A stretch of DNA of 64,000 nucleotides from Nostoc edaphicum CCNP1411 (lineage in GTDB: Bacteria > Cyanobacteriota > Cyanobacteriia > Cyanobacteriales > Nostocaceae). Every line of letters begins with the position of its first letter. Position 1 is the stretch's first letter. Below are positions 13,256 to 20,635 of this stretch, in pieces. Under the pieces are notes generated by a model, which ran no database searches, was not told the DNA's origin, and was given only the letters and a program-made list of their open reading frames with translations. A program made the position numbers and the translations under genes. The DNA is taken from NCBI RefSeq assembly GCF_014023275.1, contig NZ_CP054698.1, positions 6,161,001 through 6,225,000 of the forward strand. Direction: 5' to 3'.

Positions 13256-13354
13256 TCCTTTGTCAGTTGTCCTTTGTCCTTTGCTAATGACCAAATACTT
13301 CTCTACGAGAGGCTGCACTAATCGGCAAAGCTCAGTACAAGTGACCAATAACCA

Positions 13355-13385
13355 ATGACAAATGACAAATGACAAATGACAAATG
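13355..13385 (+). repeat. heptad repeat (ATGACAA)n supplying the start codon of the nitrilase-like gene
   Basis: ATG triplets occur every 7 bases at 13355, 13362, 13369, 13376 and 13383; the last is the start of the next gene. Each of the first four opens a five-codon mini-frame (MTNDK, then a stop). The stop of the third overlaps the gene's ATG as ATGA. Possible effects on initiation are inference. Confidence 0.75.
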
Positions 13386-14417
13386 ACAAATAATCCAGAA
13401 TTCTACCGCGCTTTAGCACTGCAAATTACCTGTCATGCAGTCAACCAAACGAGTAATCGCCACGAAGCGCGATCGCTCATGCAAAATTCCATCAACCGCC
13501 TAGCCCAACAAATTGCTGCCAGTATCGCTTTCATCGGCTTCGATTGTCGTTTAATTGTACTGCCAGAATATTTCCTCACCGGTTTTCCGATGGGAGATTC
13601 TCTAGCAGGATGGGCAGAAAAAGCTTGTATAGAAATGGCTGGTGCTGAGTATGAAGCGCTGGGTAAAATTGCCCAAAAGCATCAAATCTTTTTGGCTGGT
13701 AACGCCTACGAAGTTGACCCCAACTTTCCCGGCTTGTACTTCCAAACCTGCTTTATACTTGACCCCTCTGGCTCAATCGTCTTACGGTATCGGCGGCTAA
13801 ATTCCTTATTTGCTCCCACACCCCATGATGTTTGGGATAAATATCTCGACTGCTATGGTTTAGAAGGAGTTTTCCCCGTTGCCAAAACTGCGATCGGTAA
13901 TTTAGCTGCTTTAGCATCAGAAGAAATTTTGTATCCAGAAGTGGCGCGGTGTCTGGCGATGCGAGGAGCAGAGATTTTTGTCCATTCCACCTCGGAAGTA
14001 TACAACAAAAACCTCACCCCCAAAGACGCAGCAAAAATCACTCGTGCCGTCGAAAATATGGCATACATAGTTTCAGCTAATACCGCAGGCATCGCTAATA
14101 TTGCCATCCCCATTGCTTCGGCTGATGGTGGTTCTAAAATCATTGACCATCGCGGAATCGTTTTAGCAGAGACAGGTGCAGGCGAAAGCATGGCAGCATT
14201 TGCAGAGATTGATTTAGGAGCATTACGCCGCGATCGCCGCCGACCGGGGTTAAATAATTTACTTAGCCGCCAGCGGTTTGAACTATACGCCGAAAGTTAT
14301 CAGCAGTCACACTTTTACCCCGCTAATACTATGCTGGAGGGAGAAGTAGACCGCAAACACTTCTTGCAAACACAGCAAGCCACCATTGAGCGGTTAGCCA
14401 AACTGGGGATAATTTGA
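13383..14417 (+). CDS. nitrilase-superfamily (carbon-nitrogen hydrolase) protein lacking expected catalytic Lys and Cys
   Basis: 344 residues with the nitrilase-fold layout. The catalytic Glu is present in VLPEYF (Glu62). The strand that normally reads YRK has YRRLN (Arg138). The nucleophile position, normally C-x-D before (F/Y)PEVAR, reads LASEEILYPEVAR, putting Ser179 where Cys is expected. So two of the three catalytic residues appear substituted. It is either a non-enzymatic relative, an enzyme with altered chemistry, or I have misaligned it. Family members hydrolyse nitriles, amides or carbamoyl groups. It lies between the RCCR homologue and an aldehyde dehydrogenase, suggesting one pathway. 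The ATG is the last of a heptad repeat series. Confidence 0.8.
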   Translation: MTNNPEFYRALALQITCHAVNQTSNRHEARSLMQNSINRLAQQIAASIAFIGFDCRLIVLPEYFLTGFPMGDSLAGWAEKACIEMAGAEYEALGKIAQKHQIFLAGNAYEVDPNFPGLYFQTCFILDPSGSIVLRYRRLNSLFAPTPHDVWDKYLDCYGLEGVFPVAKTAIGNLAALASEEILYPEVARCLAMRGAEIFVHSTSEVYNKNLTPKDAAKITRAVENMAYIVSANTAGIANIAIPIASADGGSKIIDHRGIVLAETGAGESMAAFAEIDLGALRRDRRRPGLNNLLSRQRFELYAESYQQSHFYPANTMLEGEVDRKHFLQTQQATIERLAKLGII

Positions 14418-14483
14418 ATTTGAATTTGGGAATGGGGCATTGGGCATTGGGCATAGGGAATGGGGATTAGGAAGTAACAACAA

Positions 14484-14556
14484 ATGACCAATGACCAATG
14501 ACTAATGACTAATGACCAATGACCAATGACCAATGACAAATGACCAATGACAAATG
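14484..14556 (+). repeat. heptad repeat (ATGACCA/ATGACTA)n supplying the start codon of the aldehyde dehydrogenase
   Basis: Eleven ATG triplets at exact 7-base spacing from 14484 to 14554, of which the last starts the next gene. The spacing puts ATGs in all three frames. The flanking 14418-14470 is another low-complexity run (GGGCATT, GGGAATG units). Confidence 0.75.
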
Positions 14557-15972
14557 ACAGAACCAATAGAAGTCCGCAATCCCCGAACTGGTAAATTTGA
14601 CTACGTAATTATCCCGCCGCCTCCAAGGCTGGTGGTGCAGCAATGTAAGCGCACGCGTCGGGCACAAATTCGCTGGCAGCAGTTGGGTTTAGAGGGGAGA
14701 ATTGAAGCTTTACAGCAGTGGAAGGAAGCGATATTATCTGGACGCGATCGCCTCACAGAAGCTTTGGTAAATGATACCGGAAGATTGTCAACCTCAATAT
14801 TAGAAATAGATTCCTTCCTCTCTAGCATCGATCGCTGGTGTAGGTTAGCACCAGAATTGCTGCAAGAATCTGCAAAAAACACAGCAATTCCCTTTATTGC
14901 CTTGCAACAAACATCCGTTCCTTATCCCCTCGTTGGGGTAATTAGCCCGTGGAATTTTCCGCTGTTACTATCTACCATTGATACCATTCCGGCATTGTTG
15001 GCGGGTTGTGCTGTGATTGTCAAACCCAGTGAAATTACTCCCCGCTTTGTAGCGCCACTAATTACAGCACTCAACACCGTTCCCAAACTGCACGATGTCT
15101 TAACTTTTGTGGAAGGAGCAGGCGCAACCGGATCTGTTTTGATTGAGAATGTAGATTTGGTCTGCTTTACAGGCAGTGTAGCCACGGGGAGAAAAGTTGC
15201 ACAGGCAGCTGCAAAACAGTTTATTCCAGCTTTTTTGGAATTAGGGGGAAAAGATCCTGCGATCGTTTTAGAATCAGCCAATTTAGAATTAGCAACCTCA
15301 GCAATATTATGGGGTTCCGTCGTCAACACCGGACAGTCATGCCTCTCAATTGAGCGAATTTACGTTGCAGACTCCATATTTGAAAAGTTTTATCATCAAC
15401 TAGTAGCCAAAGCACATCGCCTGGAACTAGCCTACCCTACGGTTGAAAGTGGAGAAATAGGCCCCATCATCGCCGAAAAACAAGCAGCTATTATTAGCGA
15501 TCATCTTCTAGATGCAGTGGAAAAAGGAGCAGTAATTCACTGCGGTGGTGTAATTGAAGACTTAGGTGGGGGTTGGTGGTGTCGTCCGACAGTTCTCACT
15601 CAGGTTAATCATTCCATGAAAGTGATGACCGAAGAGACTTTCGGCCCGATTATGCCAGTAATGCCTTTTGGCACAGTAGAGGAAGCAGTATCTTTAGCCA
15701 ATGACTCAATTTATGGATTGAGTGCTGCTGTATTCGCCTCAGAAGCCGAAGCTTTAGAAATTGCCCAACAGATAGATGCAGGTGCTATCAGTATCAACGA
15801 TGCTGCACTCACCGCAATTATGCATGAGGGAGAGAAAAACGCCTTCAAATTCTCCGGTATGGGAGGATCACGCATGGGTGCGGCGGCGTTGAAACGGTTT
15901 ATGCGAAAAAAAGCTATTTTGATTAAAACTAACACTACTAATGACCCTTGGTGGTTTGATAATGGGGAGTAA
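14554..15972 (+). CDS. NAD(P)-dependent aldehyde dehydrogenase family protein
   Basis: 472 residues covering the whole ALDH fold. The cofactor-binding part shows SPWNFPLLL, IVKPSEITP and the FTGSVATGR loop. The catalytic base is in LELGGKDP and the catalytic Cys in NTGQSCLSIERI. A C-terminal EETFGPIMPV and later NDSIYGLSAAVF complete the family signatures. It oxidises an aldehyde to an acid; the substrate cannot be told from sequence. It is the third gene of the row with the RCCR and nitrilase-like genes, which could mean a joint catabolic route (inference). The start is within a heptad repeat, with no clear Shine-Dalgarno. Confidence 0.92.
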   Translation: MTEPIEVRNPRTGKFDYVIIPPPPRLVVQQCKRTRRAQIRWQQLGLEGRIEALQQWKEAILSGRDRLTEALVNDTGRLSTSILEIDSFLSSIDRWCRLAPELLQESAKNTAIPFIALQQTSVPYPLVGVISPWNFPLLLSTIDTIPALLAGCAVIVKPSEITPRFVAPLITALNTVPKLHDVLTFVEGAGATGSVLIENVDLVCFTGSVATGRKVAQAAAKQFIPAFLELGGKDPAIVLESANLELATSAILWGSVVNTGQSCLSIERIYVADSIFEKFYHQLVAKAHRLELAYPTVESGEIGPIIAEKQAAIISDHLLDAVEKGAVIHCGGVIEDLGGGWWCRPTVLTQVNHSMKVMTEETFGPIMPVMPFGTVEEAVSLANDSIYGLSAAVFASEAEALEIAQQIDAGAISINDAALTAIMHEGEKNAFKFSGMGGSRMGAAALKRFMRKKAILIKTNTTNDPWWFDNGE

Positions 15973-16149: not shown

Positions 16150-16367
16150 TTCAGAACACGAGTCCATTCATTCAGAACATGAGTCCATTCGTTCAGAACA
16201 TGAGTCCATTCGTTCAGAACACGAGTCCATTCATTCAGAACACGAGTCCATTCGTTTAGAACACGAGTCCATTCATTCAGAACACGAGTCCATTCATTCA
16301 GAACACGAGTCCATTCATTCAGAACACGAGTCCATTCATTCAGCACACGAGTGAGTCCATTCGTTCA
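16150..16367. repeat. 21-bp tandem repeat (about 10 copies)
   Basis: The unit TTCAGAACACGAGTCCATTC plus A or G repeats about ten times with few changes. Because 21 is a multiple of 3 and the unit has no stop in several frames, it reads as heptapeptides on both strands: SEHESIH or QNTSPFI on plus, LNEWTRV on minus. Open frames of about 90-120 codons therefore exist on both strands (15986-16354 plus, 16074-16346 minus), but none has a known domain and they are best treated as by-products. The rest of the 15973-16516 gap holds only the inverted repeat and a HIP1 site. Confidence 0.85.
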
Positions 16368-17296: not shown

Positions 17297-17642
17297 ATGA
17301 CAACGCTGCTCGTTCTAGGCAACATTAATCAGTTTACATTTGCGAACTCCATAGTTGTAGCTAATGCTAAAGCTGAGGAGATGTTTAAGCAGGCTCTAAC
17401 AAACATATTTGTTGTGCATTCAAGAGATTCTTATGCAAAGCTAAAGAGTAATGAAGATTGGGTGAATCATATAGAAGCAAATAAAGTAAGCCGAGAATTA
17501 TTTGTTGATAAAATTGTCGAAATTACAGAAGAAGCTTCAACTAAAAACTTTGTTGATTATATTGAGTTTATTTTAAAGGGTATTCCAAATGGTTCAAATC
17601 TTATTGTTGATCTCACAAATGGAACTTCATTACAGAAAAATC
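17297..17642 (+). pseudogene. 5' part of an IS-split CARF-HEPN-mCpol gene (putative CARF domain)
   Basis: The 115 codons before the IS encode an alpha/beta unit that starts with TTLLVLGNIN and later has LIVDLTNGTSLQKN, a pattern like the D-x-T-x-G-T-K loop of CARF (ligand-binding Rossmann) domains. The frame runs into the IS and stops after 10 foreign residues. Joining 17642 to 19527, which removes the IS and one copy of the 8-bp duplication, keeps the frame and continues LLSIASYILDI, a natural helix. The full ancestral protein is 484 residues. The CARF assignment comes from motif pattern only. Confidence 0.75.
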
Positions 17643-19518
17643 GTATCGGCTCAATAAGTCGGGGTAGCGAATAAAAGTAAAAAGACTTGCTAACATCCAA
17701 TTTATTGAGAGTTAACTAGATTGTTCTAACGCAGGGATTCTATTTGAATGCAAACGCTTGACTATAAAGGTTGAGGATTAATAGAAAATTTTGAGCGAAT
17801 AATAGTGTCCAATTCGGGGATTTTATCAGAGAGAGAAATCCGGTCATGTATATATTCAAAGAAGCTGATTCCCAATTTACGAGTAGTGGCAACAAGAGAC
17901 ATAAAAATGTCCCATGCCTTAGTACCCTCACTCGTTTGAGTGGCGTAACTAATTTTTTCGTCGCTGCACCATAGTCCTAGCAGCTAATTCCGCCGGATTA
18001 TTATGTAAAGGTAAGTTTGGATACTCTAAGACCAGCAGTAGTTCAGACTCTTTAGCTGCCGTTAATTTTTTTCGCTCATCTAATTGTTTATATCCAGTTT
18101 CAGTACCGAATAGCTGACAGAATTTAGTCTTTAATTCCTGTTTGGTTTTTGGGGAAGGGGAATTTCTGTAAGCGACTAATTCTCGGTAGTAATCCCAAAA
18201 TTCCCCTAAAAATTTGTCTAATGTTTGTTGACAAAAAACCAACAAATGGACTTAATTATTTATAATGTCTGGCTTCATGTACCCAACATAAAGCCAAATT
18301 ATCTGTAATTAATTTGAATTGGGGTGCATCATCGCAGACCAGAAATTCTACCACTGGTATTTGAGATTGCTGATGATAGAACGAAATTGCAGCAGCTTCC
18401 AAAACACGAGTCCGGTATTGAGAACCTAGCTTGCTTAAATACGTATCCAGCAATGAATTAAACTCTAATTCAGTCAAAACTGTTTCTTGCGGCAACAATT
18501 TCATTTGATTGTGCCATTTAGTTGGGACATTAAAACTTGTAAGCAACTCGTAAGTCAGCCCATTTAGAACATATTCAAGCTCTTGTCTATTTTGCAAGAC
18601 CCCAATTACGCTTAGTCGGTCTTTCTTAGCTGTAGTTGAGTAGACTGTGTACCAGGGGTTACAAATTACATTCGTGGTCTGATTTACTCCTTTAACACGG
18701 GCACTTGTTTGGTCTATATGCTGCCACGAGCTACTTTCTAACCCAGATGTATAAACTTGATTATATTCAGCTTCAAAATCGCCTAAGTTTTTTGATGAGT
18801 AGATTTGATAAATAGCCAGCCGACATTGAGATCCCAATATTCTCTAAAAACTCTAGCAACTTACCTTGGGTCATATTACCGCCGTAATATAAGCTAATTA
18901 CTAGAGCTTTTATTCCCGGACCAAATTCTCCATCGTAACCAGGTGGCAAAGATGCTAAATACGTTTTTCCAACACTAGGCGAGTAATATTTTTCTTTCCG
19001 GGAATAATACGTTATCAGTTAACAGTGAAATATCTTGAATGATTACCTCTTCATAGCCTTTGAACTGTGCATCAGGCGGTAGCTCACTCGCCGGATAATC
19101 CAGAATGCATGTCCTGTCTACTTTTATGCTCTGATTTTTGCTACTTTTCGTATGTTTTTTTTGGAGTGTGTCGTTCTTTTTTCGGATGAATGATTGCTCT
19201 TGAACCCTTTCGACTGATTGCTCTTGATTTCTGGTTTCCCCTGTTCGCCTTTCAGACGATTGTTTTCGTCCCGTAGTTTTTGGTTTTCTTCACGTAATTC
19301 TTTTATCTCTGATTGTTGCTGCTCTATGACGTTTAGCAGAACAGTTAATGTCTGGCGCAAGGATTCGTCTGCAAACTTTGAGGGGTCGATGGTTTGCAAC
19401 AATGCCTCTACTTGTTTTTCTGGAGATTGCTTTTGCGCCATGTCATATATTCTACGACCCTATGTGCATCTCTCTACTTTGTTATTTTTTCTACTACCCC
19501 GATTTATTGAGCGGATAC
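17643..19518 (-). mobile_element. IS66-like insertion sequence (1876 bp, degraded)
   Basis: Terminal inverted repeats of 25 bases with two mismatches: left GTATCGGCTCAATAAG from 17643, right inverted GTATCCGCTCAATAAA ending at 19518, each continuing TCGGGGTAG. The 8-bp target duplication GAAAAATC is perfect at 17635-17642 and 19519-19526. An 8-bp duplication fits IS66. The single transposase gene on the minus strand is broken, so the element should be unable to move by itself. Confidence 0.85.
17762..19441 (-). pseudogene. IS66-type transposase, multiply frameshifted
   Basis: Reading from ATG at 19439-19441 to TAG at 17762-17764 gives the pieces of one transposase of about 550 residues. They are an N-terminal coiled coil (EIKELREENQKLRDENNRL), a middle part with YYGGNMTQGKLLEFLE, a catalytic-core segment with VCDDAPQFKLITDNLALCWV (DDE-type), and a C-terminus with NNPAELAARTMVQRRK followed in another frame by ISYATQTSEGTKAWDIF. 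At least four frameshifts or stops separate these pieces (near 19124, 18990, 18838, 18246 and 17949). Confidence 0.8.
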
Positions 19519-19526
19519 GAAAAATC

Positions 19527-20635
19527 TACTCTCAATAGCTTCTTATATCCTTGATATAAAAAATCAATATTTAATTGACGTTTCAAAATTATTTGAGCTA
19601 ACTCAAGAAAGAGGATTTCTTCCACTTAATATTTTGCTATCCTGCTATACTCCAGTTCCTGATAGCACTAGGCTCGATAGCATAGCCTATCTAAATTTAT
19701 CAGAGATGGTACGCTATAGAAAAATTATAGAAACTCAAACTAATAAATATGTAGCTATAGATTCAGATTCTTCTGATAAAGAGTTTTTTAAAGATAACTT
19801 AGGTCATTCTATTCAGCTAAAGTTACAAGGTGATCAAAGTAAAGATAATGCTATCTATCGTATAGCAGCTTCATCAATTTCGGCGAGTGTAGAGGATCTA
19901 ATTCGACTTCTCGTCAGTAAATTTATCTTGGCTGATACACCTGACGGAGTAGATCGCAGAACTTTTGGACAAAAGCTCAAAATTATTCAAGCCAAAATTG
20001 AAAGTGATGCTCCATCTGACTTTGATTTAGAGTTTTTTAGCAAATTTAATGATTTCATTTTGTACTTGAGAAATAGTTCCACACACAAGGGCAAACTTTT
20101 AACTGATTTGGAGAAATTCAAGGCAGAGCTTTCTGTCAAAATGGCTTTTCCTTTTATTGATTTTTATACAGATATTGTGCATCCTTTGCTATCAAATGGT
20201 GAGCTTTCTAAAGAACCTAAGCATATGAAAAGATTATCGTATGCTGAGATAGCAGCAGGAGAGACTTTATATTATGGGTTAGATGGAGATGATACAGGAA
20301 AGATATTAGAAGAACTTTTTCTTGCCTGTAGCGATGAAGCTAGTTTTCGGAAGTTAAGTAAAAATATAGCTAATGCAATTTCAAGGATTGCTAAATTTGT
20401 TACTGATAAGCTTGGCAAGAATGCAATTGTATTTGAAGCAGGTGACGATCTTCTATTTAAGGGAAATCTTCAAGAAGAAATGCTTTTAGAAATGAAAGCT
20501 ATGTATTCACAACTAACACCTGGACTAACGTGTTCAATTGGATATGGGCGATCATTTCAAGAAGTATATTTGGCATTGAAACTTGCAAAAACTCAGCCAG
20601 GTAAAAATGCTATTGTTGGAATTGAGCTTTGCTGA
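19527..20635 (+). pseudogene. 3' part of the IS-split gene: HEPN-like segment and minimal CRISPR polymerase (mCpol)
   Basis: The frame is open from the IS edge to TGA at 20633-20635. In reconstructed numbering, a helical region contains FILYLRNSSTHKGKLL with the HEPN R-x4-H motif (Arg297, His302). Residues about 360-484 match mCpol: LYYGLDGDDTGKILEELF (metal-binding Asp368 to Asp371), IVFEAGDDLLF (GDD 421-423), CSIGYGRSFQEVYLALKLAK and QPGKNAIVGI. mCpol is related to the Cas10/cyclase palm and is linked to cyclic nucleotide defence signalling. This fragment keeps both catalytic segments and could still be made from an internal start such as the ATG at 19706. It lacks the first 116 residues. 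Confidence 0.8.

Follow-up and report, generated by a model that had tools for sequence, protein, structure and literature searches.

The window analysed here, a stretch of 64,000 nucleotides from Nostoc edaphicum CCNP1411 (contig NZ_CP054698.1, positions 6,161,001 to 6,225,000), contains a gene for a three-domain CARF-HEPN-mCpol protein that is interrupted by an insertion sequence (IS) of the IS66 type. Both the identity of this gene and its break by the IS are virtually certain. The gene starts with the ATG at 17297, is interrupted after base 17642, resumes at 19527, and ends at 20635, with the following features.

17297..17642, + strand: CARF-HEPN-mCpol 5' part, from the start to residue 115, including CARF D105-x-T-x-G (17609); PADLOC model PDLC01967, E 1.6e-44, model positions 1-115; 82% identical to the intact relative L016
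17635..17642, unstranded: target-site duplication, left copy GAAAAATC (sequence repeat)
17643..19518, - strand: IS66-type insertion sequence of 1876 bp with transposase frames in pieces; inverted ends; DDE_Tnp_IS66 E 6.4e-5; 8 full-length copies in the genome
19519..19526, unstranded: target-site duplication, right copy GAAAAATC (sequence repeat)
19527..20635, + strand: CARF-HEPN-mCpol 3' part with the remaining CARF, the helical part with the HEPN motif, and mCpol, to the stop; PDLC01967 E 9.6e-147 (frame from 19634); 89% identical to L016
20069..20086, + strand: HEPN motif R297-N-S-S-T-H302; R, N, and H invariant in 9/9 sequences and 12/12 segments
20270..20623, + strand: mCpol domain; D368-G-D370 and G421-D422 correspond to Asp6/Asp8 and Asp57 of OptS; PF18182 E 9.6e-38; alignment to PDB 9mnr, E 1.6e-9

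Removal of 17643-19518 together with one copy of the perfect 8-bp duplication joins 17297-17642 to 19527-20635 in one frame of 484 codons plus a stop, as had been read in a first-pass annotation made from the sequence alone; only this phase runs through, and the two others stop at codons 118 and 123. The motif residues also lie where that annotation had placed them (D105 at base 17609, R297 at 20069, H302 at 20084, D368 at 20282, D370 at 20288, and D422 at 20444). Its assignment of the N-terminus to CARF stands, but the position of the split had to be corrected, since the IS falls inside the CARF domain and not between CARF and the rest of the chain. Thus, the frame is not intact in this genome, and the window copy, being broken by the IS, is unable to act as one chain; it is a recent pseudogene. 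In the 3' part, 370 codons remain open, the earliest in-frame starts being TTG at 19634 and ATG at 19706. Compared with the intact gene of Anabaena sp. UHCC 0187 (L016), the joined frame has 89% identity and shows purifying selection, with a ratio of nonsynonymous to synonymous substitution rates (dN/dS) of 0.16-0.17 as estimated with YN00. The insertion is probably an ordinary, recent transposition into a gene that was formerly under constraint.

The termini of the element are imperfect inverted repeats with 33 of 42 aligned bases identical, and transposase frames of 98, 193, and 105 amino acids are found on its minus strand. One of these pieces matches DDE_Tnp_IS66 with 22.9 bits, slightly below the curated cut-off of 23.1. 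The 8-bp duplication, which has the length typical for IS66-type elements, is thus accompanied by inverted ends and an IS66 transposase, albeit one in pieces. The genome of 8.3 Mb contains eight full-length copies of the 1876-base element (the one in the window included) with 99-100% identity and the same ends, besides interrupted copies. Since these ends are identical in all eight, the boundaries of the element do not have to be guessed, and the presence of near-identical full-length copies on two contigs (G000:C6 and C5) indicates that the element has spread recently. Despite this spread, the transposase frame of the window copy is in pieces.

Domains of the joined chain

The whole chain is described by a single PADLOC model of 471 positions, PDLC01967 "CARF_HEPN_mCpol", whose match to the 3' part in the window covers positions 150-471. 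The model spans the whole chain in all five intact relatives scanned (E 3.7e-147 or better), including L016 with model positions 1-471 and E 1.4e-207, and it matches in part the deletion allele L019, described below. The mCpol domain is recognized by Pfam in the window and by the NCBIfam model NF033576 in 5/5 relatives. In the alignment to OptS, the mCpol synthase of Panoptes, the residues corresponding to the catalytic Asp6 and Asp57 (numbering and role from PMC12657218) are conserved, so that the window protein appears, as judged from its sequence, to carry the catalytic aspartate pair of a Panoptes-type mCpol synthase. Furthermore, in an alignment read by eye, S393 of the joined protein aligns with OptS Ser30, one of two residues described in PMC12657230 as giving ATP selectivity; this serine is invariant in 9/9 sequences (the window protein and eight relatives), whereas OptS Asn34 is not retained.

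For the N-terminal and middle parts, 12 CARF-HEPN segments were compared, ten from family members and two from the two-gene partners described below. At E <= 0.01, CARF1--CARF profiles are found in nine and Csx1/Csm6 profiles in seven of these segments. The CARF names of PADLOC presumably derive from Makarova 2020. The HEPN motif R-N-x3-H (R297, N298, H302) is invariant in the nine sequences as well as in the 12 segments. Hits to the HEPN-type families Cas13a, DUF4145, HEPN_Apea, and Abi_2 in Pfam and PADLOC, each in one of the 12 segments, were discounted because unrelated families score equally, for instance VPS53_C in three of the 12. A search of PDB sequences with the CARF-HEPN profile returned nothing meaningful.

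Two structure models were obtained. The first, with a five-row alignment and the Anabaena protein as target, was poor, with a predicted local distance difference test (pLDDT) score of 52, and was usable for mCpol only. The second, with 22 rows and the Nitrospirae relative L024 as target, reached a pLDDT of 79.6 and a predicted template modelling (pTM) score of 0.52. In a Foldseek search with the L024 model, Csm6/Csx1 proteins top the list across CARF and HEPN, but with a root-mean-square deviation (rmsd) of 16-22 Å. The best matches are Csm6' and Csm6 bound to cyclic hexaadenylate (cA6) or a cA6 analogue, and the mCpol part also matches OptS. The VIA-align rows on this model cover mainly residues 6-196 and 376-504. 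The three domains proposed in the first-pass annotation are thus supported by profiles for CARF, by Pfam, NCBIfam, and the OptS structure for mCpol, and by the invariant motif for HEPN; with Csm6/Csx1 as best fold matches, the predicted structure supports a CARF fold as well and, indirectly, a HEPN fold.

Distribution, alleles, and genomic surroundings

Among genomes of the same genus, none of the 34 others carries the three-part gene, and in two of them the match is limited to the mCpol part. In the phylum, matches are found in 8 of 386 genomes, four of which (that of the window included) carry the CARF-HEPN-mCpol family and four the mCpol part. In the order, 26 of 388 genomes match at E <= 1e-6, 17 with the family or its remains and nine with the mCpol part only. 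The phylum of L024 has three matching genomes among 395, namely that of L024 itself, G873 with a broken copy, and one with a match to the mCpol part. A scan of genome contigs with two short peptide patterns, which may miss relatives, gave 14 named loci. No relative was found in the viral contigs scanned, nor were tblastn matches obtained in plasmids (two queries) or phages (one query).

After merging of records on the same contig, 21 loci from cyanobacteria and Nitrospirota remain. Ten are intact (L002, L016, L017, L020 to L024, L033, and L034, the latter despite an in-frame insertion in its CARF part); named carriers are Anabaena sp. UHCC 0187, Richelia sinica FACHB-800, and Microcoleus vaginatus HSN003. 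Uninterrupted orthologues, for which the first-pass annotation had proposed a search, therefore exist, with 485-524 residues, and the segments are not always separate genes. The other 11 loci are broken (the window, L018, L019, L025 to L029, L040, L041, and L054), which is an upper figure, as L040 and L054 have single frameshifts in draft or metagenome-assembled genomes that may be sequencing errors and L019 reaches the contig end. In L019 (4596-5153), an in-frame deletion has fused about the first 68 CARF residues to mCpol, the HEPN region is gone, and the contig ends two bases later. L025 (Okeania) and L026 (Lyngbya) are the opposite case, with an open CARF-HEPN part and a truncated mCpol. 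The family consists of two groups that are about 26% identical to each other and separated with full support. The guanine-cytosine (GC) content of the gene is below that of its surroundings in the window (32-34% versus 41%) and in 7/7 relatives checked, which fits a transferred gene.

For 16 of the 21 loci, the predicted proteins encoded within up to 10 kb on either side, where the contig allowed, were compared with each other. The gene is solitary in that no partner gene recurs near it at these 16 loci and only the gene itself recurs throughout; conserved neighbours, for which the first-pass annotation had also proposed a search, did not emerge. Three Okeania loci share neighbours because they represent the same site. 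Other cross-matches are scattered and lie at differing distances; they concern kinases, ABC ATPases, short-chain dehydrogenases, and a tRNA synthetase, as judged by reading the sequences, and look like members of large families. An ABC-type protein adjoins the gene in L017 and L019, on opposite sides. Around the window copy lie RCC reductase-like, CN hydrolase, aldehyde dehydrogenase, Asp-protease-like, GIY-YIG, DUF3598_N, histidyl-tRNA-synthetase-like, and DUF1877 proteins. Apart from one marginal PADLOC protease hit, the ten window neighbours contain no defence family, and none of them matches the S-2TM-beta effector OptE in Pfam or PADLOC at E <= 0.001. Just upstream of the gene, at 16150-16352, a 21-bp unit is repeated in tandem 9.7 times (95% match); this array reads as repeated SEHESIH in one frame and as other repeats in other frames. 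Tandem repeats of 7 bp are located between metabolic genes at 13337-13391 (ACAAATG, 7.9 copies) and 14483-14558 (AATGACC, 10.9 copies).

The same domains also occur unfused. For ten of the 16 mCpol-only loci, the neighbouring or containing protein was scanned, and these ten cyanobacterial proteins comprise six CARF_m9--CARF_TM partners, two mCpol-CARF_TM fusions, and two CARF-HEPN proteins. The latter, at L045 and L049, match the CARF-HEPN part of PDLC01967 (E 2.4e-6 and 5e-4, respectively) and carry R-N-x3-H. At L045 (1504-3043), mCpol is encoded 67 bp upstream of CARF-HEPN, while at L049 (1435-2843) it follows with a 4-bp overlap, so that both gene orders are found in cyanobacteria. The occurrence of the same domains in fused and unfused form supports a joint function. 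The one-chain mCpol-CARF-TM fusions L043 (478-1938) and L044 (592-1872) have 486 and 426 residues, with mCpol N-terminal. At L008, on a 23-kb contig (G045:C83), a stand-alone mCpol-type match lies about 1.5 kb from a SMODS match (G045:C83:3889-4371) indicative of a cyclic oligonucleotide-based antiphage signalling system (CBASS), which looks like the Panoptes-CBASS adjacency of the literature.

Co-occurrence with other systems was assessed in 16 of the 21 carrier genomes (all but those of L033, L034, L040, L041, and L054), a sample that includes broken copies and one genome that does not belong to the order; the 195 genomes of the order used for comparison contain some of the carriers themselves. 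RAMP genes (PF03787) of type III CRISPR (clustered regularly interspaced short palindromic repeats) systems are present in 13/16 carriers and in 117/195 genomes of the order, a difference that is not significant (P = 0.11). PF22335 had been considered as a Cas10 marker, with matches in 13/16 carriers and 12 of them over the cut-off, and was replaced by PF03787 because it matches Escherichia coli above the cut-off. In six comparable genomes (G000, G035, G049, G052, G121, and G127), the RAMP genes are either located on different contigs or separated from the locus by at least about 60 kb, and those of the window genome are not linked to the CARF-HEPN-mCpol locus.

A possible one-chain mechanism and its alternatives

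Taken as a whole mechanism, the reading that we tentatively prefer has a little less than an even chance: the locus would be a recently IS66-inactivated one-gene defence protein whose intact chain works as a one-chain Panoptes with an RNase effector. In Csm6/Csx1, both CARF and HEPN occur as dimers. The intact chain would likewise form a homodimer or larger oligomer, and OptS mCpol is described as a dimer or tetramer in the published Panoptes papers. The mCpol domain would constantly produce a cyclic di- or oligonucleotide, and the CARF domain of the same chain or dimer would bind it and restrain HEPN, until removal of the nucleotide by a phage sponge or phosphodiesterase sets HEPN free to cut RNA and stop the cell. 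In the published accounts, mCpols are cyclases with constitutive activity, and their product keeps a toxic effector repressed (PMC12657218, PMC12657230). Repression fits better than activation because the chain would combine a constitutive cyclase with the lack of a sensor domain for an incoming cue. That the chain is a single-polypeptide Panoptes, with synthase, sensor, and RNase in one chain and the mCpol product restraining its own RNase, and that the system under its guard may be type III CRISPR instead of CBASS, is unlikely as a combined claim. The idea of such a guard is based on the RAMP gene frequency and on the absence of a CBASS excess; the nucleotides seen by CARF would be of the kind that phages remove with anti-type-III ring nucleases or sponges. 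A guard of CBASS was rejected, as carriers are not enriched in CBASS.

Several observations weigh against the preferred mechanism. In characterised CARF-HEPN RNases such as Csm6/Csx1, the ligand activates the enzyme instead of silencing it. Under Panoptes logic, L025 and L026 should kill their hosts, provided that the effector is functional, which counts mildly against repression; however, their remaining parts have dN/dS values of 0.07-0.22, like those between intact copies (0.07-0.21), which suggests young breaks and makes this a weak argument, and these alleles may be recent, unexpressed, or otherwise dead. Unlike the published linkage of Panoptes, CBASS is found in 2/16 carriers versus 22/195 genomes of the order (P = 0.70), where a SMODS match in the window's own genome is counted in the carrier scan and absent from the order scan. 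The domain evidence is also uneven. Pfam detects neither CARF nor HEPN in the window pieces or in L016, where it finds mCpol alone; L016 and L017 match no CARF family except PDLC01967 at E <= 0.01, and the 5' half in the window gives weak matches to other CARF models (E 0.0018 to 0.012). For the window group, the CARF and HEPN assignment is therefore indirect and derives from PDLC01967, the motifs, and homology to the second group. It is this second group, about 26% identical to that of the window, to which the good structure model belongs, and in this model the HEPN part has a pLDDT of about 60-88 and Csm6 gives global template modelling (TM) scores of 0.21-0.29 with an rmsd of 16-18 Å.

An activating version, in which a phage cue would awaken an otherwise quiet mCpol whose product would then activate HEPN by binding to CARF, in the manner of type III signalling but without CRISPR, has a substantial probability, although we would rather not expect it to hold. 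It agrees with the ligand-activated state of the Csm6' and Csm6 structures that are the best fold matches, tolerates L025 and L026, and would suit the frequent, although not significantly enriched, RAMP genes of the carriers. However, the chain has no sensor domain for the cue and no recurring partner, a cell would be poisoned by a chain that couples a constitutive cyclase to an RNase activated by its product, and the mCpol of Panoptes is constitutive, consistent with the absence of the Cas10 regulatory region (PMC12657230). A regulatory role outside defence, in which a cyclic nucleotide controls RNA turnover, is clearly improbable. The near lack of defence families among the window neighbours and the failure to find relatives in the viral contigs, plasmids, and phages searched would agree with it, whereas a housekeeping regulator should persist within a clade, and this gene is patchy, absent as a three-part gene from the 34 other genomes of the genus, low in GC, and broken at 11/21 loci. 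Finally, it is very improbable that the IS-separated halves still work apart, as a truncated CARF and a HEPN-mCpol protein translated from ATG 19706 or TTG 19634. The long open 3' part with its in-frame starts and the two-gene arrangements at L045 and L049 speak for such halves, but the cut inside CARF leaves neither half with a whole sensor, and the two-gene relatives are split between CARF-HEPN and mCpol instead. With 99-100% identity between the IS and its sister copies, the break is probably young, and selection is not needed to explain the open frame.

Relation to known systems

In contrast to the first-pass annotation, which did not know the three-part fusion as a described system, the CARF_HEPN_mCpol architecture was already contained in the PADLOC-DB of 2023. 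Fusion to HEPN is also noted in the Panoptes paper of 2025, where mCpol is described as "coupled in operons or fused to" HEPN RNases (PMC12657218). A functional study of CARF-HEPN-mCpol was not found in the literature searched on mCpol/CARF/HEPN fusions, outside of which are Makarova 2020 and Burroughs 2015, and the passages covered of PMC12265719 contain no such fusion. New from this analysis are the inventory of intact and broken copies, the two-gene relatives, and the absence of a CBASS excess; the window adds one dead member. According to the Panoptes paper, it is an open question whether effectors other than that of Panoptes itself are repressed or activated by mCpol nucleotides (PMC12657218). 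CARF-HEPN-mCpol offers a simple place to ask this, as one gene with three separately killable active sites and intact copies in named cyanobacteria, and two-gene relatives and natural broken alleles are available for comparison with the one-chain form.

The PADLOC system CARF_HEPN_mCpol (PDLC01967) agrees with the joined protein in its three domains and in their arrangement along the entire chain, the window copy differing in that it is split by the IS. Panoptes, consisting of the mCpol OptS and the S-2TM-beta protein OptE, shares the mCpol fold, the catalytic aspartates, and the joint encoding of synthase and effector of one signal, but it uses two genes and a membrane 2TM beta-barrel protein in place of one gene with a CARF sensor and a HEPN effector, and the carriers studied here lack its CBASS excess. 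Csm6/Csx1 proteins of type III CRISPR have CARF followed by HEPN in one chain with R-x4-H, the arrangement predicted here as well, and are the best fold hits, whereas CARF-HEPN-mCpol has its own C-terminal polymerase domain, and RAMP genes are not near its locus in the six comparable genomes (CRISPR arrays were not searched for). The cyanobacterial pairs and fusions of mCpol with CARF_m9--CARF_TM resemble it in that mCpol stands beside or is fused to a CARF effector; their effector is predicted to be a membrane protein instead of HEPN, and mCpol is N-terminal in both of their fusions but C-terminal in CARF-HEPN-mCpol.

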